A stretch of DNA of 64,000 nt from Sphingomonadales bacterium (GTDB lineage Bacteria > Pseudomonadota > Alphaproteobacteria > Sphingomonadales > Sphingomonadaceae). The notes below the pieces were generated by a model, which made no database searches, was not told where the DNA came from, and was given only the letters and a program-made list of their open reading frames with translations. Below are positions 4,330 through 43,447 of this stretch, in pieces. How positions within the stretch are numbered: position 1 is the stretch's first letter; each line of letters opens with the position of its first letter. The stretch is taken from positions 1 to 64,000 of the forward strand of contig JANYGX010000012.1 in the NCBI GenBank assembly GCA_025362295.1, read 5' to 3'. The position numbers and the translations under genes are program-made.

Positions 4330-5307
4330 ATGAAAGCTATTGTCTGTGACGCCTTCGGGCCACCGCAAAACCTCGTCTACAGGGATATGCCATCACCGCT
4401 GGTGACGGCTGGCACGGTTAAAATCCGTGTGCGTGCAGCGGGTGTGAACTTCCCGGACACACTCATCATTCAGGGCAAATACCAGTTCAAGCCAGCGTTC
4501 CCGTTCTCGCCTGGGGGTGAGGTCGCTGGGGATGTGATGGAGGTTGGCGAGGGGGTGACGCATGTCAAGCCCGGCGACCGGGTGATCGGCATGACACTGA
4601 ATGGCGGCTTTGCTGAAGAGGTTGTGGTGCCTGGCACCGGCTGCTTTGCCATGGCGCCGACCATGCCGTTTGATGAGGCGGCGGGCTTCACCATGACCTA
4701 TGGCACCTCGCACCACGCGCTTCGCCAGCGCGCTGAACTGAAGCCAGGTGAGACCGTACTGGTGATGGGAGCAGCGGGCGGCGTTGGCCTCACCGCTGTC
4801 GAACTTGCCAAAGCCATGGGGGCCACGGTGATTGCAGCCGCCTCGACGGACGACAAGCTGGCCCTGGCGCAAAAATATGGGGCTGATCATCTGCTTAACT
4901 ACAGCAATGTGGATATCAAAGAGGGCATCAAACTGCTGACCAAGGGGCAGGGCGTTGATGTGGTCTACGATCCGGTTGGCGGTGATTATACCGAGCCAGC
5001 CTTCCGCTCGATAGGCTGGAAAGGCCGCTATCTTGTTGTGGGCTTTGCCGCTGGGCCTATCCCGCACTTGCCACTCAATTTGCCGCTGCTGAAAGGCGCT
5101 GCCATCGTTGGTGTGTTCTGGGGCGATTTTGTCCGGCGGGAGCCCGATCTTCACGCGGCCAACATGCGCGAGTTATTGAGTTGGTATGCCGAGGGCAAAC
5201 TGAAACCGCATGTAAGTCAGCAATATCCGCTCGAGAAGGCAGGCGAGGCGCTGAGCTGGGTGATGAACCGGCAAGCTCAGGGTAAGGTTGTGCTGACTGT
5301 GGCTTGA
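4330..5307 (+). CDS. NADPH:quinone oxidoreductase, zinc-independent MDR family
   Basis: 325 residues, the usual length. The N-terminal GroES-like domain contains VRAAGVNFPDTLIIQGKY and PGGEVAGDV. The Rossmann domain has the nucleotide-binding AAGGVGLTAVELAKAMGA near residue 150. The structural-zinc cysteines of zinc alcohol dehydrogenases are absent, which places it with the quinone oxidoreductase/crotonyl-CoA reductase branch of the medium-chain superfamily. It should reduce quinones or enoyl-type substrates with NADPH in the cytoplasm. It is monocistronic, with rpmE behind its own leader downstream. Confidence 0.85.
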   Translation: MKAIVCDAFGPPQNLVYRDMPSPLVTAGTVKIRVRAAGVNFPDTLIIQGKYQFKPAFPFSPGGEVAGDVMEVGEGVTHVKPGDRVIGMTLNGGFAEEVVVPGTGCFAMAPTMPFDEAAGFTMTYGTSHHALRQRAELKPGETVLVMGAAGGVGLTAVELAKAMGATVIAAASTDDKLALAQKYGADHLLNYSNVDIKEGIKLLTKGQGVDVVYDPVGGDYTEPAFRSIGWKGRYLVVGFAAGPIPHLPLNLPLLKGAAIVGVFWGDFVRREPDLHAANMRELLSWYAEGKLKPHVSQQYPLEKAGEALSWVMNRQAQGKVVLTVA

Positions 5308-5378
5308 TCAAGCCAATAAAAACCGTGCCAGCCGACTTGCCTTTTTCTGTTACTTCGGTTATTTCGCCCTTTAAGTAC

Positions 5379-5406
5379 GGGGCTGGTCGGAAACCAGCGC
5401 CTTTTT
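5379..5406 (+). terminator. Hairpin plus T-run just upstream of rpmE
   Basis: GGGGCTGGT (5379-5387) pairs with ACCAGCGCC (5393-5401), eight of nine positions, followed by TTTTT (5402-5406). It looks like an intrinsic terminator for the upstream gene. It abuts the rpmE ribosome-binding site (AGGACG, 5407-5412), so it could instead act as a leader attenuator for rpmE. Confidence 0.5.
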
Positions 5407-5419
5407 AGGACGTTGCACA

Positions 5420-5650
5420 ATGAAAAAAGACACCCACCCTGACTACCACATGATCAAGGTTCAAATGCTTGACGGAACCGTTTATGAAACGCGCTCTGTT
5501 TGGGGCAAAGAGGGCCAGACCATGACCCTGGACATCGATCCGACTGTGCATCCGGCATGGACTGGTGGCAACCAGCGGGTGCTCGACGCCGCCGGTCAGG
5601 TCTCGAAATTCAACAAAAAATTCGGTGGCCTCAAGCTCGCTGCCAAATAG
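5420..5650 (+). CDS. rpmE: 50S ribosomal protein L31
   Basis: 76 residues with the family pattern [19 protein letters not shown] and [16 protein letters not shown], ending [12 protein letters not shown]. It is a structural protein of the large subunit near the subunit bridge. No CxxC pairs are present, so this is the zinc-independent form usual in alphaproteobacteria. AGGACG lies seven bases before the ATG. A terminator-like hairpin immediately upstream may control it. Confidence 0.95.
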
Positions 5651-5701
5651 TTTAACCGTCTTAATCGTTTGGCCGAGAGGGCTAAACCCGCAGAGTTTAC
5701 T

Positions 5702-7321
5702 ATGTTAAAAACCGGTGCCGAGCATCTGGTTCACGCACTCATGGCAAATGGCACAACCCATGTGTTTTGCGTGCCGGGGGAAAGCTATCTGGCTGTGCTG
5801 GATGCACTGGTGGGTGCGTCAATCACTGTCATCACATGTCGCCATGAAGCCGCAGCGGCCAATATGGCAGCGGCTCACGGTAAACTCACTGGCCGGGCAG
5901 GCATATGCTTCGTCACGCGCGGCCCAGGGGCTACCCATGCAAGCATTGGCGTACACACAGCGTTTCAAGATTCGGTGCCTATGCTCCTGTTCATCGGTCA
6001 GGTGGCGCGCGCTGACCGTGACCGTGAGGCGTTCCAGGAAGTGAATTACCGCGCCATGTTTGCACCCTTGGCCAAGGATGCAACCGAGATTGATGACGCT
6101 GCTCGGGTGCCGGAATATATCAACCGAGCCTTTGCCACGGCCGAAAACGGCAGGCCGGGTCCGGTGGTCATCTCGCTGCCGGAAGACATGCTGACCGACG
6201 TGGTTGAGGCATGCGCCTTGCCGGCCAGCCCGCGTCTGCGCATGGCCCCTGCAGCAGCGGATATCGAACACCTCTCAGCTCTGCTCAAAGATGCAGCATC
6301 ACCCATGTTGGTGGTTGGCGGCACGGGTTGGACTGAACAGGCCGCCGTCGACATCACCGCGTTTGCTGTTGCCAACGGGCTCCCCATCGTCACAAGCTTT
6401 CGTGCCAAGGATATTATCGATAATCGCCACAGCCATTATGCGGGTGATATGGGTATTGGGCCGAACCCTAAGCTTGCTGCGCGCATCACAGCCGCCGATC
6501 TGTTGATTGTGGTTGGCGCGCGGCTGGGTGAAATGACGACGGGCAGTTACACTCTGTTGCCGTCGCCGGTGACCAAACAAAAGCTGGTGCATATTCATGT
6601 GAGTGCCGAGGAGCTTGGCCGGGTCTATTATCCAACGGTTGCGATGTGTGCGACCATGCCGGAAGCCGCTTTTGCCTTGTCTGGCGTCGCGGTTCGCGCT
6701 GCAGCGCTGCCAGTGGCGGAGCGCGCGGCCTATCTTGAGTGGATCAGGCCGACGCCGGATGGTCTTGGCCTCAACCTCTCGACGATTTTCAGTTATTTGG
6801 ATCAGGCTCTGCCGGAGGATGCCATTGTCTGCAATGGTGCTGGCAATTACGCCGTGTGGACGCACAGGTTTTGCCAGCATAAAAAACTCGGCACGCAGCT
6901 GGCGCCGACATCGGGGGCCATGGGGTATGGCGTGCCAGCCGCGATTGCTGCCAAAATCATGCAGCCGGAAAAAATGGTCGTGTCGGTCGCTGGTGATGGT
7001 TGCTTCATGATGTCGATGCCGGATCTGGCAACCGCTGTGCGTTACAAAGCCGCCGTTATATTCATCGTTGTCAACAACAGCCAGTATGGCACCATCCGGA
7101 TGCATCAGGAAAAACATTATCCCGGTCGGCAATCGGCCACAGCGCTCACCAATCCGGATTTTGTCGCACTCGCCAAGGCCTTTGGCATGAACAGCTGGAA
7201 GGTTGAGCGTGCCGAAGATTTTGCAGCCGTGTTTGCCATGGCGCAAACAGATGGTGGGCCGACGCTGATTGAGATCATCACCAATCCAGACGATATAGCC
7301 CCCGGCCGCACACTTTCATAA
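5702..7321 (+). CDS. ThDP-dependent enzyme of the acetolactate synthase/2-oxo acid decarboxylase family
   Basis: 539 residues from MLKTGAEHLVHALMANG; a TTG at 5669 would add 11 residues but has no family support. The three ThDP enzyme domains are present: the N-terminal Pyr domain with the catalytic glutamate region (HEAAAANMAAAHGKLTG), the central domain, and the C-terminal PP domain with GDGCFMMSMPDL and the paired NN (VVNNSQYGT) that bind Mg-ThDP. It is annotated generically in this family; acetolactate synthase activity is not assured because no ilvN-type regulatory subunit is adjacent. It is 12 bases upstream of an ALDH7-type dehydrogenase with its own AGGAG, so the pair probably decarboxylates a 2-oxo acid and oxidises the resulting aldehyde, which is inference. 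Confidence 0.8.
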   Translation: MLKTGAEHLVHALMANGTTHVFCVPGESYLAVLDALVGASITVITCRHEAAAANMAAAHGKLTGRAGICFVTRGPGATHASIGVHTAFQDSVPMLLFIGQVARADRDREAFQEVNYRAMFAPLAKDATEIDDAARVPEYINRAFATAENGRPGPVVISLPEDMLTDVVEACALPASPRLRMAPAAADIEHLSALLKDAASPMLVVGGTGWTEQAAVDITAFAVANGLPIVTSFRAKDIIDNRHSHYAGDMGIGPNPKLAARITAADLLIVVGARLGEMTTGSYTLLPSPVTKQKLVHIHVSAEELGRVYYPTVAMCATMPEAAFALSGVAVRAAALPVAERAAYLEWIRPTPDGLGLNLSTIFSYLDQALPEDAIVCNGAGNYAVWTHRFCQHKKLGTQLAPTSGAMGYGVPAAIAAKIMQPEKMVVSVAGDGCFMMSMPDLATAVRYKAAVIFIVVNNSQYGTIRMHQEKHYPGRQSATALTNPDFVALAKAFGMNSWKVERAEDFAAVFAMAQTDGGPTLIEIITNPDDIAPGRTLS

Positions 7322-7333
7322 CAGGAGTTTTCC

Positions 7334-8836
<1,503 letters not shown>

Positions 8837-32139: not shown

Positions 32140-33789
32140 TTATTTTAGCATCTTATGCATAGCATGGCCAGTTTTCCAATCGGTTAAGATCATATCGCTG
32201 GCTTTTTCGGCAATCATGATCGTTGGGGCATTGGTGTTGCCTGAAATAAGCTTTGGCATCACCGAGGCATCGACCACGCGAAGGCTCTCGACACCACGCA
32301 CGCGCAAGCGCACATCAACCACGGAGCGATCGTCACTGCCCATACGGCATGTCCCGACTGGATGATAGATTGTTTCTGCCCACGCCTTGATGCCTTCAAT
32401 CAGCGTGTCCCGGCTTTGCATAGCTTGTGTTGGCCATGCTTGCTGCGCACCCAATTTGGTAAAAACCGATGCATTGCCAATTCGTTTGGTTATGTCTATG
32501 CCTGCCAGCACGGTTTCAATATCTTCACTTGCCGACAGATAGCTAGGGTCAATGGCTGGCGCATCCATCGCCTTGGCGCTTTTCAGCGTGATACTACCAC
32601 GGCTTTCGGGTCGCAGCTGGCACATGTGAATGGAATAGCCATGCTGTTTGGCTCTGGCTTTGTCTTCAATGCCATGCGGCAAACCAAAACCAGCGATAAA
32701 ATGCAGCTGAATATCCGGCGCCACAAGCTCTGGTCGCGTTTTCAAAAAGGCACCGACAACAGTGGGTGCATAGGTGCCTGCACCTGAACTGGTGAGTGCC
32801 CACTGTATGCCTGCTGTGATGTTGTGCGGAAACAGGCCGTAGCGATTGAGCGACACAGGTGCCGTGATGGTCCATTGCAGCAAATGATCAAGATGGTCCT
32901 GCAAGTTTTTGCCCACCTCATCAGCGCAGGTAACCACCGGAATATTATAGCTCTGCAAATGCGCCGCCGGGCCAATGCCGGACAGCATCAGCAGTTGCGG
33001 AGAGTTGACAGCGCCGCCACATAAAATAATCTCGCGCCTAGCATTGATGGTGTGATGTTTGCCCTTGCTGATATAGGCAATGCCGCTGGCACGTTGCTTG
33101 TCAAAAATTATTTTTTCAGCCTGGGCATGGGTTATGATACTAAGGTTTGGGCGATTTTTAACAGGTGTGAGATAGGCCTTTGCTGCCGACCAGCGGCTGC
33201 CATTTTTTGTTGTGGTATCAAAGACCCCAAGCCCTTCCATATGCGTGCCATTAAAATCGTCAGTGTTTAAAAACCCGGCTTCGGGTGCTGCGTCAAGAAA
33301 AGCTTCTACAAGCGGGTGTGAAAACAGTTTTTGCTCTGTGTGCAATGGACTGCCAAGGCCATGGTGATCATCATGCTTGCCTGCGGCACATCTGGCGCTG
33401 TCTTCAGATTTTTTGAAATACGGCAACACATCGTCCCAGCTCCAGCCTGTGCAGCCGAGCTGTGCCCAACGATCATAGTCCGATGCATGACCGCGAATAT
33501 AGACCATGCCATTGATGGACGATGAGCCCCCCAGCACGCGGCCGCGTGGCCAGAACAGCCGGCGGTTGCCAAGTTGTGTTTGCGGCTCTGTCCAGTAATC
33601 CCAGTTGGCCTTGCTTTTGCCGGGTGGCAATAAACCCACAATACCGGCTGGCATATGAATCAGCGGATGTGTGTCCTTACCGCCAGCTTCTAGCACAGCC
33701 ACACGAACTGTTGGGTCGGCACTCAGGCGATTGGCCAGAACACAACCGGCAGACCCGGCACCGACAATGACATAATCAAAAATTTCCAT
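32140..33789 (-). CDS. GMC-family FAD oxidoreductase (choline/alcohol dehydrogenase-like)
   Basis: 549 residues from MEIFDYVIVGAGSAGCVLANR; an upstream GTG/ATG at 33843 is not supported. FAD binding is via GAGSAG (~10-15), GMC signature 1 is RVLGGSSSINGMVYIRG, and the C-terminal active site is YHPVGTCRMGSD, whose His acts in hydride transfer. Members oxidise choline or primary alcohols to aldehydes. No betaine aldehyde dehydrogenase or betI is adjacent, so an alkanol or other alcohol is as likely as choline. It is a single gene. Confidence 0.88.
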   Translation of the reverse strand: MEIFDYVIVGAGSAGCVLANRLSADPTVRVAVLEAGGKDTHPLIHMPAGIVGLLPPGKSKANWDYWTEPQTQLGNRRLFWPRGRVLGGSSSINGMVYIRGHASDYDRWAQLGCTGWSWDDVLPYFKKSEDSARCAAGKHDDHHGLGSPLHTEQKLFSHPLVEAFLDAAPEAGFLNTDDFNGTHMEGLGVFDTTTKNGSRWSAAKAYLTPVKNRPNLSIITHAQAEKIIFDKQRASGIAYISKGKHHTINARREIILCGGAVNSPQLLMLSGIGPAAHLQSYNIPVVTCADEVGKNLQDHLDHLLQWTITAPVSLNRYGLFPHNITAGIQWALTSSGAGTYAPTVVGAFLKTRPELVAPDIQLHFIAGFGLPHGIEDKARAKQHGYSIHMCQLRPESRGSITLKSAKAMDAPAIDPSYLSASEDIETVLAGIDITKRIGNASVFTKLGAQQAWPTQAMQSRDTLIEGIKAWAETIYHPVGTCRMGSDDRSVVDVRLRVRGVESLRVVDASVMPKLISGNTNAPTIMIAEKASDMILTDWKTGHAMHKMLK

Positions 33790-33903
33790 GGTTTTGGTAT
33801 TCCACTTCATTTGGATGTGTGAATATTCACTAAGCTGTATCAAATAGAAATATATTGCCAGTTATAAAATGAATAATGGTAACATAACAATGCCATTCCG
33901 GAT

Positions 33904-34116
33904 ATGAGCCTGACCTTTCGCCATGCGACATTAGCAAGTGAGATATTCGCGCAGTTTCTCCCGAACAAGGCTGTTTGCTATTTATATGTCGGAAATGCAG
34001 ACACCGCCATGACGGCGGCGCTGCGAAACGGGGCTAAACAAATTATGGACGTGGACGATATGCCGTACGGAGACCGGCAAGGTAGTATCCCAGACCCCTG
34101 CGGCAATATATGGTAG
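33904..34116 (+). pseudogene. Remnant of a VOC/PhnB-like glyoxalase-fold gene
   Basis: The 70-residue frame contains YLYVGNADTAMTAALRNGAK and YGDRQGSIPDPCGNIW, the C-terminal half of a PhnB-type VOC protein. The expected N-terminal half is missing and the frame stops directly after the conserved GNIW, where family members continue with a WTIATH-like tail. The first ~20 residues do not match the fold. It is best read as a decayed fragment. The gap 33844-34274 holds nothing else that I can support. Confidence 0.6.
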
Positions 34117-34274
34117 ATTTCTCAGCGATTAATTGATGCACCCTACTTTTGAGGTAAAGATATTACGCAGCAGTCGCCGTGTTCAAACGGAGACACTCTT
34201 TATATTTTTCATTCCAATTGCTACGCGCAGTCGCTATTCTTGATAGAGATAGTAGTTATATATGGAGTGTATTG

Positions 34275-35756
34275 ATGTTACCGCGAATTTTGACTGCGGC
34301 TATTGGAGTTTTGCTTGCCATCAGTCTTGCCGCGTGCGGTAAAAACCAGACGGGCTCGAAAGCTGAAAAAAATGGTGTTATGGCGACGCAGCGGGCCTTT
34401 GAAAATCCGCCCAACGTTGTACTGATTATGGCAAGTTCTCTGGGTTATGGTGATGTGTCTATAAACGCGGGCGGCAGGTTGCCCACACCCAATATTGACC
34501 GCATTGCCAAAGACGGTGTGCTGTTTACAACCGGCTATGCAGTATCCTCGGCACGTGGGCCATCTCGCGCCGGGTTGCTCACGGGGCGCAATCCAAGCCG
34601 CAATGGCTTTGAGTATGATAACGGACCAGGCCGCCGCGATGAGGAGCAAAATCTGGGTTTGCCGACCGATGAGGTTTTGCTCTCCGATATCTTGCATGAG
34701 CGCAAATATCACACCGGTTTTATAGGGTCGTGGAATCTGGGTAACCTTAAACCATACACACCGGCCAATCGCGGTTATGATGAATTCTACGGCGTTACAG
34801 ATGGCGACGCTGGTTATTTTGAGTCGGGTCATGAAGATATGGCTTTTGCACAAACACAAAGTTTCCAGCAACCACCCGTCGCCACACGCTACACACAAAT
34901 TGTTAAAGGCGACGATACGCATCCGGTGAACATCAGCAACCGCTATCTGACAACAGATTTTGGTGATCAGGCGGTCGACTTCATAGACCGTAATGGTCAA
35001 GGGCGTTTTTTCCTGACCGTGGCTTTCAATGCGCCGCACCAGCCCTTGCAAGCGCCAAAGTCTCTGGTCGATAAAATGCTAGCTTTTGCCGAACCACGCC
35101 AAAAAATCTACGCGGCCATGATTGCCAGCCTTGATGAAAACGTCGGCAAGATACTGGGTGCCATCGACAATCGCGGCCTTGCACAAAATACGATTGTTAT
35201 ATTTGTGTCGGACACGGGTTGCGATGTAGAATCTGGCGCGTGCTCGTGTGATGGTTTGCGTGGTGGCGCGCCGACGCTTTACGATGGCGGGTTGCGTGTG
35301 CCGATGATGATTAAATGGCCTGATAAAATAAAATCGGGCACACGTTATACAAAGCCAGTCAGCCTCATGGATATAACACCAACCGTAATCGCAGCGACAG
35401 ATGCCGCGCGACCGGCCGGCAAAAAATTCGACGGTGTTGATTTATTGCCATATATAGCAGGTAAAAAAAAGGCTGGGCCACACGAAACCCTGGTGTGGTT
35501 GCGGCGCCCGGCGGCTGCCATACGCTACCGTGACTGGAAGTTGATCGTTAATCCTGAAACGGCGCAAACGCAATTGTTCGATCTCGCGGCTGACCCGGTT
35601 GAACGCAATGATCTCAGCACCAAGCGGTCTGACATGATCGGCGAAATGCGCGCACAGCTGGAAATTGACCGCTCTATCGCCACCGATCCGCGCTGGCTCA
35701 GCCGGGAAAAAGCCAAGCTTGAATTCTGCAATGAGACCATGAGCATTTACCGGTAA
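34275..35756 (+). CDS. Sulfatase-fold lipoprotein with a degenerate active site (pseudo-sulfatase)
   Basis: 493 residues from MLPRILTAAIGVLLAISLAAC, a lipoprotein signal with C21 as lipidation site. The whole chain follows the arylsulfatase fold, but aligning motifs by eye with canonical sulfatases shows key losses. The metal Asp-Asp is S54-S55 (IMASSLGYGD); the formylglycine Cys is R94 (ARGPSRAGLLTG, with R98 kept); the Lys and His of GKWHLG are S152 and N154 (GSWNLG); the Asn of SDNG is T314 (VSDTG, D313 kept); the Lys of GGKGT is A332. H255 (APHQPL) remains. The protein is full length and well formed, so it is probably a binding or regulatory pseudo-enzyme at the cell surface rather than a recent wreck. 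gltX follows 20 bases on. Confidence 0.85.
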   Translation: MLPRILTAAIGVLLAISLAACGKNQTGSKAEKNGVMATQRAFENPPNVVLIMASSLGYGDVSINAGGRLPTPNIDRIAKDGVLFTTGYAVSSARGPSRAGLLTGRNPSRNGFEYDNGPGRRDEEQNLGLPTDEVLLSDILHERKYHTGFIGSWNLGNLKPYTPANRGYDEFYGVTDGDAGYFESGHEDMAFAQTQSFQQPPVATRYTQIVKGDDTHPVNISNRYLTTDFGDQAVDFIDRNGQGRFFLTVAFNAPHQPLQAPKSLVDKMLAFAEPRQKIYAAMIASLDENVGKILGAIDNRGLAQNTIVIFVSDTGCDVESGACSCDGLRGGAPTLYDGGLRVPMMIKWPDKIKSGTRYTKPVSLMDITPTVIAATDAARPAGKKFDGVDLLPYIAGKKKAGPHETLVWLRRPAAAIRYRDWKLIVNPETAQTQLFDLAADPVERNDLSTKRSDMIGEMRAQLEIDRSIATDPRWLSREKAKLEFCNETMSIYR

Positions 35757-37854: not shown

Positions 37855-38877
37855 TCAGACTTTCGCGAGGTTCATCACCGGGCAACCGAGGTCCTGGGTG
37901 TTCATTGAATCGAGGGCATGCAGCCAAGGGGCCAGTTTGCCATCCGCGAGTTGCAGCTGGCCGTTTTCGAGAATGCGGCCAATAGAATTGCGACTGTCAG
38001 CAAGGGCCACTGTGCACTTTGCAAGGGTGCCGTCCGCACGAATGAGGAAGGCATTGGCCTTCGAGGCATAGCACACGTAGGTCTTATCCGTTGATGGTTC
38101 CAGATAATCTGCAACATCCTCATAAATCCGGTGCGTGATATCAATATAGTCTTTCTTGTCACCCTCGAAAATCTTCACATTGGCATCGTTGGCACCGCCA
38201 TAATGGCCGATATTTTTAAGAAAAATATTAAAATGTTTTGGATTGAGGTTGGCTTTAATGCGCTCAATCAAGGCTTCAACTGAGGCTATGTTATCTGGGT
38301 GCAAATGCACGCGCACCAGCACCTTTGCATTGTGCAGCAATCCGGCATCCGCAAGGCGATTGAAAAGCACAAGATTTGCCCAGATTGTATCGAACGTGCC
38401 GGCCCCGTCAGCCCGCAAGCGCGTTGTGTTGTGGGCAGCGGCATCACCATCGAGCGAGATCTGGAAATGCCGGATACCAAAGCCAGTCATCTCCAGCAAA
38501 CGCGCTTCGTCAAGTGCATAGCCGTTTGTGGTTATGTTGCTGATAAAAGAGAATTTGAAGCTTGATGCCAGCTCTTGCGCATAGGTGCACAGCTGTTTCA
38601 TCACTGGATAAGCAAGCAATGGCTCGCCACCAAACCATGATATCTGCAAATGCTGTAAGTCAACAGCCCGGTTATCGAGCAGCCGCATGATCCCAGCTAT
38701 TATCGCTGGTTTCATGCGACCAATGGCGAAGTCTTCATAGCAGTATACGCACCGGAAATTGCACTTTTCCGTTGGAAAAATGGTAAGTTCCAGACGGTCT
38801 TGTGTGAGCGCACTGTCGAGTATGAGCTCACGTTCAAGCTCAGACTCGACGACGTGCTGTTTTAAAGCGGTGACCAT
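37855..38877 (-). CDS. Radical SAM protein with shortened SPASM-like C-terminus
   Basis: 340 residues. The SAM-cluster motif is CNFRCVYCYEDF (C39, C43, C46), followed by WFGGEPLL, the SPASM-family GGEP element that contacts SAM, and FQISLDGDAAAHN. The C-terminal region has C269-x13-G-x4-C288, the first half of a SPASM domain, but after GCPVMNL (C332) the protein ends, so the usual CxxC...C...C set is missing. SPASM proteins mostly modify peptides or proteins. It is 71 bases downstream of the small CHTCH peptide gene on the same strand, which makes that peptide the natural candidate substrate. I do not recognise a named subfamily. Confidence 0.85.
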   Translation of the reverse strand: MVTALKQHVVESELERELILDSALTQDRLELTIFPTEKCNFRCVYCYEDFAIGRMKPAIIAGIMRLLDNRAVDLQHLQISWFGGEPLLAYPVMKQLCTYAQELASSFKFSFISNITTNGYALDEARLLEMTGFGIRHFQISLDGDAAAHNTTRLRADGAGTFDTIWANLVLFNRLADAGLLHNAKVLVRVHLHPDNIASVEALIERIKANLNPKHFNIFLKNIGHYGGANDANVKIFEGDKKDYIDITHRIYEDVADYLEPSTDKTYVCYASKANAFLIRADGTLAKCTVALADSRNSIGRILENGQLQLADGKLAPWLHALDSMNTQDLGCPVMNLAKV

Positions 38878-38948
38878 AGGCTATGCTAATATTTTAAGAG
38901 TGTAACCAATGACTGAAAACAGCCAGTGGATACAGCAAATAAAATATA

Positions 38949-39200
38949 CTACGCGGTTGGCATATGGCAGGTGTGACAGTTTACGCCGCTGATTTTTTTC
39001 AAAGCGCGGGTTTTTTGGGCCACTTGTGAAATTTGGCCAGAGATGTCAGTCCCTTTGACGGCAGGGCGGCCATATTGATCCAGACTTATATGGCTTGTTA
39101 CCGCTTCAACTGCAGGCTGTGGACTGGCAATCGCGGCTCCCGAAGTCGCCAGAAGGGTGAGAGCGGCTGCAATAGCAGTAGTTTCCAAAGTTTTAGACAT
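38949..39200 (-). CDS. Small exported peptide ending in CHTCHM; candidate RiPP precursor or small cytochrome c
   Basis: 83 residues; AAGGAT precedes ATG 39200. A clear Sec signal peptide (MSKTLETTAIAAALTLLATS...) has a likely cut after A25 (A-I-A). The mature 58 residues (HISLDQYGRPAVKGTDI...) end in GVNCHTCHMPTA with C75, H76, C78, H79 and M80. Two readings: (1) a precursor modified by the radical SAM protein 71 bases downstream, perhaps metal-binding, like other signal-peptide-bearing modified peptides; (2) a c-type cytochrome fragment, because CHTCH is exactly CXXCH, though a haem site in the last ten residues of a 58-residue protein would be odd. The promoter carries a CtrA-type site. Confidence 0.7.
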   Translation of the reverse strand: MSKTLETTAIAAALTLLATSGAAIASPQPAVEAVTSHISLDQYGRPAVKGTDISGQISQVAQKTRALKKISGVNCHTCHMPTA

Positions 39201-39245
39201 TGTTCATCCTTTTTTTATTAATATAAACATTAGAAGACACATGAA

Positions 39246-39274
39246 TACTATGGTTAATGCTAGGTTAATGTCAA
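39246..39274 (-). promoter_or_regulatory. TTGACA promoter with TTAA-N7-TTAA (CtrA-type) box
   Basis: Reading the minus strand, TTGACA (39274-39269) is followed after 16-17 bases by CATAGT/ATAGTA (39252-39246). The spacer contains TTAA (39268-39265), seven bases, and TTAA (39257-39254), the exact CtrA consensus. It lies 46-74 bases before the small peptide ATG. A site inside the promoter could mean repression or direct cell-cycle control. About one such 11-mer-spaced match is expected by chance per 64 kb, so position rather than occurrence is the argument. Confidence 0.45.
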
Positions 39275-39387
39275 TGAATTTGGCTGATGTTTCCGCTATT
39301 TTAAGGTGAAATATTTGTGACGATCGATTGCAATTGGCATTTTGCGAGTTTCTACTTTGCAAAGGGTATTAGGCTTCTTGCCATTTT

Positions 39388-39431
39388 AACCCGACAATCC
39401 CCTCCACCACCCCTCTCTCTCCCTCAAGGGG
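39388..39431. repeat. CCTCCCC-type repeat fragment in the divergent gap 39201-39520
   Basis: Pyrimidine-rich text with CCCCTCCACCACCCCTCTC and CTCAAGGGGAG resembles the repeat at 1391-1550. Apart from this and the promoter at 39246-39274 the 320-base gap is AT-rich and I see no gene. It would hold the promoter of the permease gene on the plus strand, which I cannot locate with confidence. Confidence 0.35.
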
Positions 39432-39520
39432 AGAAGGTATTCAGTGCCACATTTAAGCCAATTCCTGAGATGTGCGCTCTTACGCTATTAGACGCAACTA
39501 CAAGTTAATATGTGTAAGCC

Positions 39521-42022
39521 ATGAAGTTCATCGTCGCCCACACGCTATTTCTCACCCAGCATAACATTCGTGCTGGCTGTCGCTATTTGGTGCTGCATCG
39601 CCGCACCACAGCGCTTAACCTTGCCGGTCTGGTCATCGGGCTAGTCGCAACCCTCATGATCCACCTCTATATCCAGTTCGAAACCAGTTATGATACCTGG
39701 CTGCCAGAGTCGGACAAGATTTTCAGGCTGGAAGGGCAGATGGCTTTTCCGGGTGAAAAAAAATATGAAACAAGCGCCTCAGCTTGGCAGATGTTACCAG
39801 CCATGCAACACCATTTTAGTCAAATTCGTGCCGGCACCCGTGTCTTTGTAGCCACAACATTGATACCATTGCATGGGGCACCACAAAATCAGGATATTGC
39901 CATTGTAGATAAAACGTTTGCCGATGTTTTCAGGCTGCCAATGATTGTCGGCGACTTGCATAACACACTGGGCAATCCGTCAGGCGTTGCCATCAGTCAA
40001 ACAATCGCTAGGCAATTGTTCGCGGATCATCCTGCCATCGGTCAGTCCATTACACTGACTGTTCTAGGTCAGACAAAACCCTATGTCGTTATGTCCGTGT
40101 TCAATAATCTTCCAATCAACAGCCATTTCTCAATGGCCATTATACTCCCTTTCAACCTAGACTTTTTCAAGGACTCCAATGACTATTTTACCAACTGGGA
40201 AGCCTTGCAGTTTTTCACCTATGTCAAATTGCATACAGCGCAAGATTCGTTATATATAGATCATAATCTGAATGGTTTATGGGATCAGGTTGCACACATC
40301 AAAGACGCCACAAAGTTTTCTGACAGTTTCCAATACGCATTGACCGCATTGCACAACATTCACCTTTATCCGAAACACGAAGTCGGCTTTTCAAGCCCAG
40401 CTGGTCATCACACGGTTGTCACAGCCTTTCAATTAATAACCTACGTGCTGGTTATCATGATTATCGTCAATTTCATCAATCTCACCACCACAGAAGCCAG
40501 CGGGCGCACTCGAGAGATGAGTATACGGCGAATTTTTGGCGGTCAAAAATATCAGATCCTTATTCAGTTACTGATGGAAACAGCCATTATGATGATCTTT
40601 GCGATCACAATAGCCCTGTTTATCATTGCCGGCATCACGGCTATACTCAATGCTTATCTCGACACGCATCTTGCTCTGTATGTCCGTGGTCCACACACGA
40701 TTTTACCTGTGGTGCTGGGGTTGTTTGTTGTGCTGGTTATTATAGGGGGTGTCTATCCGGCCATGACCACGGTTGGAAATGATATTGCCGGCTCACTCTG
40801 TGGGCGGCAGAATATAGGTAAAAAAAATATTGTGATCATCAGAAAAGCAATGGTGTGCTTGCAATTTATTTTGGCAACCGGCCTGATGATTTGTACGGGG
40901 ACTATCGCTTTGCAAACACTTTTTAGCGAAACGGACAAACCTGGTTTTGAAGTGAATGGTTTGTATACCATTGACCATTTTGATGAATCCGTTTCAGCGC
41001 AGCAGAAGAAAGAATTCATGTCAGGTTTGCAGACAATTCAAGCCGTGCAAGCGGCCACGTATTCTGATCTCAATATATTTTCGAAGGGGAACTATCAATT
41101 TAATGTTTACAAAAACGCTGTTGATAGCAAGGATGCAGTGTATTCTGAGTTCTACGCTGTAGACAACAACACGTTTCAGGTGTTTGGTATGCCTGTTCTG
41201 GCGGGACGAACTTTTTCTTCTGACAAACCTGAAGATGATGTTGCAGACGCGTCCTATGAATTTTTAAAGGACCGCAATACATCCGTGATCCTCAATATGA
41301 TGGCCGCAAAGACATATGGCTTCAAGTCAGCACAGGCAGCCATTGGTCAGCGTGTGTATCTGCAGTCGAATACGCCAAATGCAAAACATTTTCCGGCAAC
41401 CATTGTTGGTGTTGTCGCGGATGCTCGCTTTGGCAGTCTGCATAAATCTATAATGCCCGCTTACTACCTGCACCGCACGTCCGGCTTCACGGCCTTTACG
41501 CTACGCCTTACGCCAGAGCACCGCGCCCAATCCGTGGCGACCATCAAGGCGCTGTTTCAACGCATCGTTCCGGGCCGCGAATTTCAGGCCGCCTTTATCT
41601 CCGATGTGATGGCCGAGCAGACGGTGACGGACAAACTCAAATCACGCGCCTTCATTTTGTTTTCGTGCCTTGCGGTTATCATTGCGGCCATTGGCCTGTT
41701 TGGCCTTGCGGCCTACGTGGCAGAAAGCCGGCGGCAGGAAATCAGCGTGCGCCGGGTGTTTGGCGCAGGCCTCAATCATATCACAAGACTATTGATGCGG
41801 GAATTTCTGCAACCGATTATCTGGGCCAACGTGGTGGCATGGCCGGTCGCGTGGGTGGCCATGCATATCTGGCTAAGCGGTTTCAGCAAGCATATCGATA
41901 CGCCAATTTATATGTATTGTGCAGCCGGTCTTGGAGCCTTTGAGCTCGCCATACTCACGGTTGCATGGCATGTCCGCAAGATCAGACAAGCAGATATGGC
42001 GGACAGCCTGCGCTACGAGTAA
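39521..42022 (+). CDS. MacB/FtsX-type ABC transporter permease
   Basis: 833 residues. The first membrane helix (LNLAGLVIGLVATLMIHLYI, ~34-53) is followed by a large periplasmic domain. Two FtsX modules follow: FQLITYVLVIMIIVNFINLT with SGRTREMSIRRIFGGQ, and a second with FSCLAVIIAAIGLFGLAAYV and SRRQEISVRRVFGAG. MacB-type permeases do not translocate through the membrane helices but use mechanotransmission to expel peptides, toxins or lipoproteins from the periplasm. The cognate ATPase is probably the gene at 42719-43447, on the other strand. It diverges from the peptide/radical SAM pair and converges with the oxygenase with a 10-base overlap. Confidence 0.88.
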   Translation: MKFIVAHTLFLTQHNIRAGCRYLVLHRRTTALNLAGLVIGLVATLMIHLYIQFETSYDTWLPESDKIFRLEGQMAFPGEKKYETSASAWQMLPAMQHHFSQIRAGTRVFVATTLIPLHGAPQNQDIAIVDKTFADVFRLPMIVGDLHNTLGNPSGVAISQTIARQLFADHPAIGQSITLTVLGQTKPYVVMSVFNNLPINSHFSMAIILPFNLDFFKDSNDYFTNWEALQFFTYVKLHTAQDSLYIDHNLNGLWDQVAHIKDATKFSDSFQYALTALHNIHLYPKHEVGFSSPAGHHTVVTAFQLITYVLVIMIIVNFINLTTTEASGRTREMSIRRIFGGQKYQILIQLLMETAIMMIFAITIALFIIAGITAILNAYLDTHLALYVRGPHTILPVVLGLFVVLVIIGGVYPAMTTVGNDIAGSLCGRQNIGKKNIVIIRKAMVCLQFILATGLMICTGTIALQTLFSETDKPGFEVNGLYTIDHFDESVSAQQKKEFMSGLQTIQAVQAATYSDLNIFSKGNYQFNVYKNAVDSKDAVYSEFYAVDNNTFQVFGMPVLAGRTFSSDKPEDDVADASYEFLKDRNTSVILNMMAAKTYGFKSAQAAIGQRVYLQSNTPNAKHFPATIVGVVADARFGSLHKSIMPAYYLHRTSGFTAFTLRLTPEHRAQSVATIKALFQRIVPGREFQAAFISDVMAEQTVTDKLKSRAFILFSCLAVIIAAIGLFGLAAYVAESRRQEISVRRVFGAGLNHITRLLMREFLQPIIWANVVAWPVAWVAMHIWLSGFSKHIDTPIYMYCAAGLGAFELAILTVAWHVRKIRQADMADSLRYE

Positions 42023-42729
42023 GTGCGCAGCCAACCGGTGATCGAATGGCGCTTGGCCGGGCAATAGGGCGGCACAAAACTCACGGCGTGCGGCTGCGGC
42101 ACCGCAAACAGGTTGAGTGCGCCCAGTGTTGGCAGGCAAGCTTCAAGCACGGTACCGTCCGGCCCGATGAATTGCAGTTGGCCGCCCCAATCCGCTTGCC
42201 AGTTTCGGCTGAGGTTCAGCACATAGGCCGCCAGCCGGTGCTGGTCTGGTGCGTGGTCGGTGTGCTGTTTCAAAAAATGACCCGCGCCGTAACGGGTCGC
42301 CTGGACATCGGCAAACTCAATGCGAGGCGCGCCGGTGATGTGCCTTAAGGCACTCAAAGTCGTCGATTTGTTCATAAAATCAGCGATTTTTTGCCTGTTT
42401 TCTGCTGCTTTTGACTGTTTTTTTGTATGTATTGGTATTTTTATGCGTTCGAATAAATAGCAGAATTCCGCCATTGCTTGCGCATAAACTGTGAAAAACA
42501 AGGCATTATAGCCATTTTGTGATAAGCGGCGCAAAGCGGCCGCAGACACATCAAAACTGTCTTTTTTGTCGTTATAACTCAGCGCCCATGCAGTCTCATT
42601 TTCCAGCACACTGGCCATGACATCAGCTGATTTCGGCGTTATAAAATCAATGATTTGAATGCGTTGATGTATTTTATAGGCCTTGGCCAAAGCATCCAGA
42701 TCCAGTTTTGGATTCAACTCATATGGCAT
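42013..42729 (-). CDS. 2-oxoglutarate/Fe(II)-dependent oxygenase, prolyl hydroxylase-like
   Basis: 238 residues from MPYELNPKLDLDALAKAY; a longer frame to 42861 lies inside the ATPase gene. The double-stranded beta-helix iron motif is H156-x-D158 (FLKQHTDHA), the distal His is H214 (PHAVSFVPP), and R227 (KRHSITGW) would bind 2-oxoglutarate. RLAAYVLNLSRNWQADWGGQ matches Tpa1/Ofd1-type prolyl hydroxylases. It hydroxylates a proline or other side chain of a peptide or protein in the cytoplasm. It starts within the last bases of the ATPase gene, so they form an operon; whether the small peptide is its substrate is conjecture. Confidence 0.85.
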   Translation of the reverse strand: MPYELNPKLDLDALAKAYKIHQRIQIIDFITPKSADVMASVLENETAWALSYNDKKDSFDVSAAALRRLSQNGYNALFFTVYAQAMAEFCYLFERIKIPIHTKKQSKAAENRQKIADFMNKSTTLSALRHITGAPRIEFADVQATRYGAGHFLKQHTDHAPDQHRLAAYVLNLSRNWQADWGGQLQFIGPDGTVLEACLPTLGALNLFAVPQPHAVSFVPPYCPAKRHSITGWLRTYS

Positions 42730-43447
42730 ATTTAACCTGATGCATTGGCGGATTGAGGGAATCCGCGAAAATCCGCCCATCCAGCATATTGATAATCCGG
42801 TGCGTAAAATGAGCATGGGCTGTGGAATGGGTGGCCACCAATATGGTTGTCCCGGTTGCATTCAAGTCTTTAAATAATTGCATGATTTCCATGCCACAAC
42901 GCGAGTCAAGATTGCCGGTTGGCTCATCAGCAAGCAGCAGCATCGGTTTGCTGGCAATGGCGCGTGCAATCGCCACTCGCTGTTGCTGGCCGCCGGAAAG
43001 TTCGTGCGGGTATTGCCCACCAAGGTCGCTAATGCCCACTTGTTCCATCACATCCGCAATACGTTGCTTGCGATCACTGGCTCTCATAACCTGATACAAC
43101 AGGGCCACTTCAACATTTTCGTAAGCCGTCAAATCGTTAATAAGGTTGAAGTTTTGGAAAACATAGCCGATGTGGCGACGTCGCCATTCAGTGAGCGTGG
43201 TATCGGCGATCTCATCGGTACGCTGACCCAAAAATTCGTGTGATCCAGTGCTAGCACGCAGTGTCATACCGATAATGTTGAGGAGTGTTGACTTGCCACT
43301 GCCAGAAGGCCCCATCAGCGCGATAAATTCATGTGGCGCAATTTGCAAATTTACAGACTGAAGTACGGTTTTCTCGACCAGTCCGTGTTTGTAAATTTTT
43401 TCAACGTCCCGCATTTCAACAAGAAAATTGTCGTTTTTCATCACCAA
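42719..43447 (-). CDS. ABC transporter ATP-binding protein, MacB/LolD family
   Basis: 242 residues. Walker A GPSGSGKSTLLN, Q-loop VFQNFNLI, signature LSGGQQQRVAIARA, Walker B LLLADEPTGNLDS, switch His in THSTAHA. The GNLDS form and the ~220-residue size are typical of the MacB/LolD/FtsE group, which pairs with FtsX-like permeases such as that encoded at 39521-42022. The gene is first in a two-gene unit with the oxygenase and diverges from zwf across a 239-base AT-rich gap in which I see no clear feature. Confidence 0.92.
   Translation of the reverse strand: MVMKNDNFLVEMRDVEKIYKHGLVEKTVLQSVNLQIAPHEFIALMGPSGSGKSTLLNIIGMTLRASTGSHEFLGQRTDEIADTTLTEWRRRHIGYVFQNFNLINDLTAYENVEVALLYQVMRASDRKQRIADVMEQVGISDLGGQYPHELSGGQQQRVAIARAIASKPMLLLADEPTGNLDSRCGMEIMQLFKDLNATGTTILVATHSTAHAHFTHRIINMLDGRIFADSLNPPMHQVKYAI

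Follow-up and report, generated by a model that had tools for sequence, protein, structure and literature searches.

Pseudoenzymes are known for many enzyme classes. PsS1_19B, an S1_19 sulfatase, and its aromatic shelf are described in PMC6923384. The SulfAtlas paper (PMC5066984) mentions nine sequences from Lentisphaerae and Planctomycetes that have lost one positively charged residue and are possibly inactive. PMC7018646 describes the periplasmic domain of PbgA as lacking the catalytic residues of its superfamily. This protein also goes by the names YejM and LapC, and YejM has been given a role in LPS control. YejM is reportedly also called a metalloenzyme.

Here, we analysed a stretch of 64,000 nucleotides (the window) from a Sphingomonadales bacterium and describe a gene whose product, judged from its sequence, is a pseudoenzyme without a formylglycine residue, with a single one left of the four metal ligands and likewise of the four catalytic Lys/His (Table 1). 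Compared to the possibly inactive SulfAtlas sequences, which lost one residue and come from other phyla, the window protein has lost seven of ten and belongs to a group with linked neighbours. It also differs from PbgA/YejM/LapC, an inner-membrane protein with a transmembrane domain, by its lipoprotein N-terminus, and scored 18.5 bits with the PbgA/YejM model (cut-off 825). Such proteins form a small group in one bacterial order, and no description of a pseudo-sulfatase family was found in the open-licence PMC literature. A PF00884 match is readily annotated as a sulfatase, and the group would be miscounted as sulfatase capacity in genome surveys. Our main reading, to which we assign a probability of roughly 0.55, is that of a retained non-catalytic lipoprotein with a complete S1-sulfatase fold and a probable S1_19-type origin that serves the same process as a locus of GMC oxidoreductase and EHN epoxide hydrolase genes.

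Table 1 Features of the pseudo-sulfatase gene and its surroundings. Positions refer to the window unless the G055 stretch is named; residues are given in the order window/G055/G060/G007.
Feature	Position	Strand	Residues	Basis or remark
GMC oxidoreductase, choline-dehydrogenase-like	32140..33843	-		PF00732, 6.3e-60; upstream of and divergent from the pseudo-sulfatase gene
Region between the divergent genes	33844..34274	.		may be longer, as the true GMC start is perhaps inside the ORF
Pseudo-sulfatase lipoprotein gene	34275..35756	+		493 aa; Pfam match, catalytic-residue alignment, AlphaFold2
Signal peptide and lipobox LAAC (Cys21), then Gly	34275..34337	+		by eye
Ser54-Ser55 replacing metal-binding Asp-Asp	34434..34439	+	54: S/S/G/S; 55: S/D/D/N	alignment
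Arg94 replacing formylglycine Cys/Ser	34554..34556	+	R/A/A/S	alignment
Arg98			R/R/R/R	kept in all four
Ser152-Trp-Asn154 replacing Lys-Trp-His	34728..34736	+	152: S/V/S/A; 154: N/G/S/G	alignment
His255			H/S/R/M	alignment of G007 uncertain
Asp313			D/N/D/F	
Thr314 replacing metal-binding Asn	35214..35216	+	T/R/R/A	alignment
Cys316, Cys323, Cys325	35220..35249	+		in window, G055, G060 and the G007 pieces
Ala332 replacing catalytic Lys	35268..35270	+	A/A/A/A	alignment
Cys485	35727..35729	+		in window, G055 and G060
RiPP-like cluster	37855-43447			
Radical SAM protein	37855-38877	-		nearest TIGR04334 and TIGR04463, both below cut-offs
ORF of 83 aa immediately upstream of the radical SAM gene	38952-39200	-		signal-like N-terminus (by eye), C-terminal NCHTCH (CxxCH)
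ABC permease	39521-42022	+		darobactin exporter models DarB/DarD, below cut-off
2OG-Fe(II) oxygenase	42013-42861	-		in the RiPP-like cluster
ATPase	42719-43447	-		darobactin exporter models DarB/DarD, below cut-off
G055 EHN epoxide hydrolase, adjoining GMC	5248-6372	-		G055 stretch
G055 GMC frame	6387-8177	-		G055 stretch

The reading frame starts with ATG, contains no internal stop and has a GC content by codon position (0.58/0.45/0.53) similar to that of the genes around it. A lipobox Cys followed by Gly was found in all four members of the group, and signal and lipobox together would imply an envelope lipoprotein. The sulfatase fold covers the full length of the protein, with PF00884 matching residues 46-376 (E=1.3e-49) and PF16347 (SGSH_C) residues 335-462 (5e-11). 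AlphaFold2, run with 32 sequences, gave a model with a pLDDT of 89.8 and a pTM of 0.89, whose top Foldseek match was PsS1_19B (6psm; E=1e-45, TM 0.80 by query), followed by other S1_19 enzymes; against viral models, distant giant-virus sulfatases ranked top. Similar to the structural search, the sequence search of the PDB found S1_19 carrageenan sulfatases as the nearest entries, with 6psm the best (E=2e-83). The whole fold and the motif order are common to the window protein, PsS1_19B (6prm/6psm), Ps i-CgsB (6bia) and ZgCgsA (9hh2), at 30-36% identity over about 440-450 aligned columns. However, unlike S1 sulfatases, the window protein lacks the Cys/Ser that becomes formylglycine, the metal-binding Asp-Asp and Asn, one His and both Lys, and the group probably derives from a catalytic relative of S1_19-type sulfatases.

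Catalytic residues were read from an alignment of 133 rows, the window protein included, which remained from 155 matching ORFs of the fetched loci once we had removed duplicates, copies contained in others and matches under 250 residues. The ten metal-binding, formylglycine and catalytic positions are those that matter in S1 sulfatases, mapped onto the window protein from alignments and counted leniently, with common substitutes allowed. A preliminary description had called the protein a full-length sulfatase homologue with about seven of ten catalytic residues gone, and the ten positions read exactly as it had listed them: S54, S55, R94, R98, S152, N154, H255, D313, T314 and A332, of which only R98, H255 and D313 are retained. 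The metal ligands D, D, D and N correspond to S54, S55, D313 and T314, and the catalytic K, H, H and K to S152, N154, H255 and A332, leaving one of four in each set. Instead of the formylglycine Cys/Ser there is Arg94 in the window protein and Ala in the G055 and G060 copies; G007 has Ser. The replacements were also seen in a pairwise alignment with PsS1_19B (6psm/6prm).

Overall, 126 of the 133 rows retain nine or ten catalytic residues, and three or fewer were found only in the window protein, G055 and G060. The four rows in between (4 to 8 residues) are either gapped at the missing positions (L052, L006 and L116) or have A and V at the first two (L111). Thirty further rows from later searches brought G055 and G060 a second time and otherwise only truncated rows and sulfatases that look catalytic. 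Among columns conserved in 85% or more of the 130 comparison rows (those without the window protein, G055 and G060), the window protein keeps 54 of 60 non-catalytic but only 3 of 10 catalytic ones (Fisher p=1.3e-4), so that its catalytic loss exceeds general divergence. The same comparison gave 51/60 versus 2/10 for G055 (p=8.8e-5) and 49/60 versus 3/10 for G060 (p=0.0019). Sulfate-ester hydrolysis by the window protein is not credible on these residues, and poor sulfate binding is to be expected, because the formylglycine residue, the majority of the metal ligands, one His and both Lys are gone; this would favour a role in binding a ligand or a partner.

Using at most three of ten catalytic residues together with Ala332 to delimit the group, we found it in four genomes: the window's own (G000), G055 and G060 carry intact copies, and G007 a copy in pieces. 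The three intact members come from three genera. G055 is the nearest relative (44% identity to the window protein), while G007 and G060 are 32-33% identical; under the lenient rule, G055 keeps 2/10 and G060 3/10 catalytic residues, and the G007 pieces 3/10 (Asn55, Ser94, Arg98), or one if counted strictly. Ser at the formylglycine site can be used by Ser-type sulfatases, and G007 has it with few other catalytic residues. Its gene (L034) is split over frames, which may be due to assembly errors, since the same stretch holds another split gene, acetolactate-synthase-like by eye. As to whether relatives share the replacements, a check the preliminary description had proposed, the losses are common to them but the residues mostly differ, and only the change from Lys to Ala at position 332 is identical in all four. 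This pattern is compatible with an early event that was followed by relaxed constraint, and also with losses that occurred in parallel.

A midpoint-rooted tree, built without the ten catalytic and the four Cys columns, grouped the window protein, G055 and G007 with an ultrafast bootstrap of 99 and an SH-aLRT of 97. G060 joined them with weaker values (81/38), and 82% of the 200 bootstrap trees recovered a single origin of the four; nine rows from the same family that look catalytic were placed beside them at 97/93. When only the catalytic columns were left out, the four formed one group (SH-aLRT 92). The end branches of the four are 0.71, 0.82, 1.71 and 2.06, against a tree median of 0.37, which fits a partly relaxed constraint.

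In the distribution searches, catalytic residues were read from fetched loci only, mostly the best match per genome. Of 98 genomes drawn as relatives, 47 had a match, and among the loci read the stripped kind occurred in G000, G055, G007 and G060. In the family, 24 of 397 genomes had a match at 1e-60 and the stripped loci read were those of G000 and G055 only, G007 falling below this threshold as its gene is split; in the order, 14 of 296 genomes matched at 1e-80, and the stripped loci read were those of G000 and G060. G060 is the single genome of its family in the set searched. In 385 sampled genomes of the class, 19 had a match at 1e-70 and the loci read were catalytic-looking or truncated, save the window; searches around G055 and G007 turned up no further stripped copy in the loci that were read. 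Viral contigs gave no match, and 723 matching plasmid records were all below 60% identity. A scan of genome contigs with the single window protein found no close relative usable for dN/dS; an alignment-based scan found 79 loci, including G055 and G060 again (L059, L102).

The stripped gene adjoins a GMC or an EHN gene in three of the four members. In G055, a GMC homologue occupies the same divergent place and is about 57-58% identical to the window GMC (57% over 549 aa); in G060, the gene divergent from the pseudo-sulfatase is an EHN gene, 60% identical to that of G055. Among loci L001-L184, of which 64 of 184 span at least 9 kb and several repeat one place, GMC matches occurred in the G000 and G055 loci only and EHN matches in the G055 and G060 loci only. 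Neither gene was found in the 17 kb G007 stretch, and no EHN match in the whole G007 and G000 genomes. In the family, 47 of 347 genomes have a GMC match at 1e-170. In 30 GMC loci fetched with 1.5 kb flanks (L195-L224), EHN was present in 23, and a sulfatase relative in two (G000 and G055), so that 28 of the 30 have the GMC locus without the stripped gene. The window GMC is nearer to GMCs of genomes without the stripped gene, with which it shares up to 62% identity, than to the G055 GMC, and the GMC and pseudo-sulfatase genes therefore need not have travelled together. In several of these loci (L196-L224), an MFS transporter lies before and lipB after, both named by eye. A tie of the pseudo-sulfatase to the downstream gltX gene (same strand, short gap) was rejected after no gltX match was found in the G055, G060 and G007 stretches.

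We also examined the host's capacity to mature sulfatases. The pseudo-sulfatase is the only PF00884 match in G000 (2.59 Mb, 37 contigs, listed as 100% complete). A sulfatase-maturing FGE or anSME was not found in these 37 contigs, where a missing gene is possible: the two PF03781 stretches belong to a single gene, identified as EgtB (TIGR03440, 537 bits versus a cut-off of 360), and the best score with the anSME model TIGR03942 was 42.8 bits against a cut-off of 349.45. The radical SAM protein encoded downstream (Table 1) resembles peptide maturases (42.8-43.5 bits versus the same anSME cut-off) and was rejected as a sulfatase maturase also because the window protein offers no Cys/Ser as a substrate for maturation.

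An alternative explanation is that the gene is decaying: catalysis would have been given up when the lifestyle changed, so recently that the frame has not yet broken. The stripped members' branches, longer than those of catalytic-looking relatives, would agree with this, as would the unlike replacements at most catalytic sites, the split G007 copy and the maturing enzyme not found in G000. For the window-G055 pair, NG86 gave a dN of 0.56 and a dS of 2.62, at which dS is saturated and dN/dS not decisive. However, divergence by codon position was 0.444/0.333/0.655, and position 3 thus diverged about twice as much as position 2, which speaks against neutral drift, under which both would be alike. 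When the window gene was evolved neutrally to 0.1665 at position 2, half the divergence of the pair, a mean of 6.7 stops arose and all 300 runs contained stops; at 0.10, 5/300 were stop-free. Both genes are stripped and only 44% identical, yet both are open, an argument that bears if the catalytic loss predates their split, in which case both lineages would have been under selection since. The codon-position divergence and the stop-free frames argue for purifying selection on the window/G055 gene, the retained non-catalytic columns also count against decay, and the G007 breaks may be the assembly errors mentioned above. We consider decay unlikely.

The preliminary description had also suggested that a surface pseudo-sulfatase could bind sulfated glycans or act as a regulator; we considered the binder as one that uses the old substrate pocket. 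Its picture of an intact pseudo-sulfatase lipoprotein whose fold is kept was borne out by the predicted structure, and relatives share the loss; binding by the old site was not supported, because the residues that hold metal and sulfate are those that are gone: D54, D55 and N314, which leaves one of the four metal ligands, and K152, K332 and H154, which leaves one His and neither Lys of the sulfate site. The carrageenan sulfatases as nearest solved structures, the lipoprotein signal and the retained H255 and R98 point towards glycan binding. However, G055 has Ser and G060 Arg at the H255 position, the shelf residues F103 and Y455 of PsS1_19B correspond to R120 and about A480, neither of them aromatic (hand count on the pairwise alignment, beyond which Y458 lies), the genome holds no other PF00884 match, and no sulfated-polysaccharide genes were recognised near the window gene (by eye, and by Pfam on six neighbours). 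This binder is improbable in our view, and we give equally little credence to a re-use of the fold for other catalysis with new residues, for example around Cys316, Cys323, Cys325 and Cys485. Cys485 is present in all three intact pseudo-sulfatases and in none of the 130 comparison rows (45 of which are gapped there), Cys325 in 3/3 versus 1/130, and Cys316 lies three residues past the retained metal ligand D313. Against this, Cys316 and Cys323 co-occur in 13/130 comparison rows, Cys325 also occurs in catalytic-looking sulfatases (L061 and, outside those rows, L182), ordinary disulfides may explain the cysteines, and at the lost positions we saw no common replacement that could serve as a new acid, base or nucleophile.

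We therefore return to the retained non-catalytic lipoprotein. The computed evidence consists of the missing catalytic residues, a fold prediction, a clade of three members, the retention of non-catalytic columns, uninterrupted reading frames and the adjacency to GMC or EHN; from it we infer that the protein serves the process to which the GMC/EHN locus belongs, in a non-catalytic capacity. The likeliest role would be the capture or hand-over of the locus substrate, or assembly with an envelope partner, and the ligand is probably not a sulfate ester. Contact with the GMC and EHN enzymes would be less likely than a shared substrate or process, because both enzymes look cytoplasmic by eye (the GMC protein has no signal peptide, by eye) and the pseudo-sulfatase is a lipoprotein. 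A more specific version, which we hold only tentatively, is that a sulfatase fold became a non-catalytic lipoprotein part of a GMC-oxidoreductase/epoxide-hydrolase oxidative pathway in Sphingomonadales-type bacteria, giving a family of pseudo-sulfatases with its own conserved cysteines and its own ligand, and was kept to bind and not to hydrolyse. If the role is confirmed, the group would offer a tractable example of how an enzyme fold is retained for binding once its chemistry is gone, and GMC/EHN would be the clue to the pathway.

Separately from the pseudo-sulfatase, the window contains the RiPP-like cluster listed in Table 1. Its 83-aa ORF had no NCBIfam match at E 1 and is a candidate precursor peptide or small haem protein.
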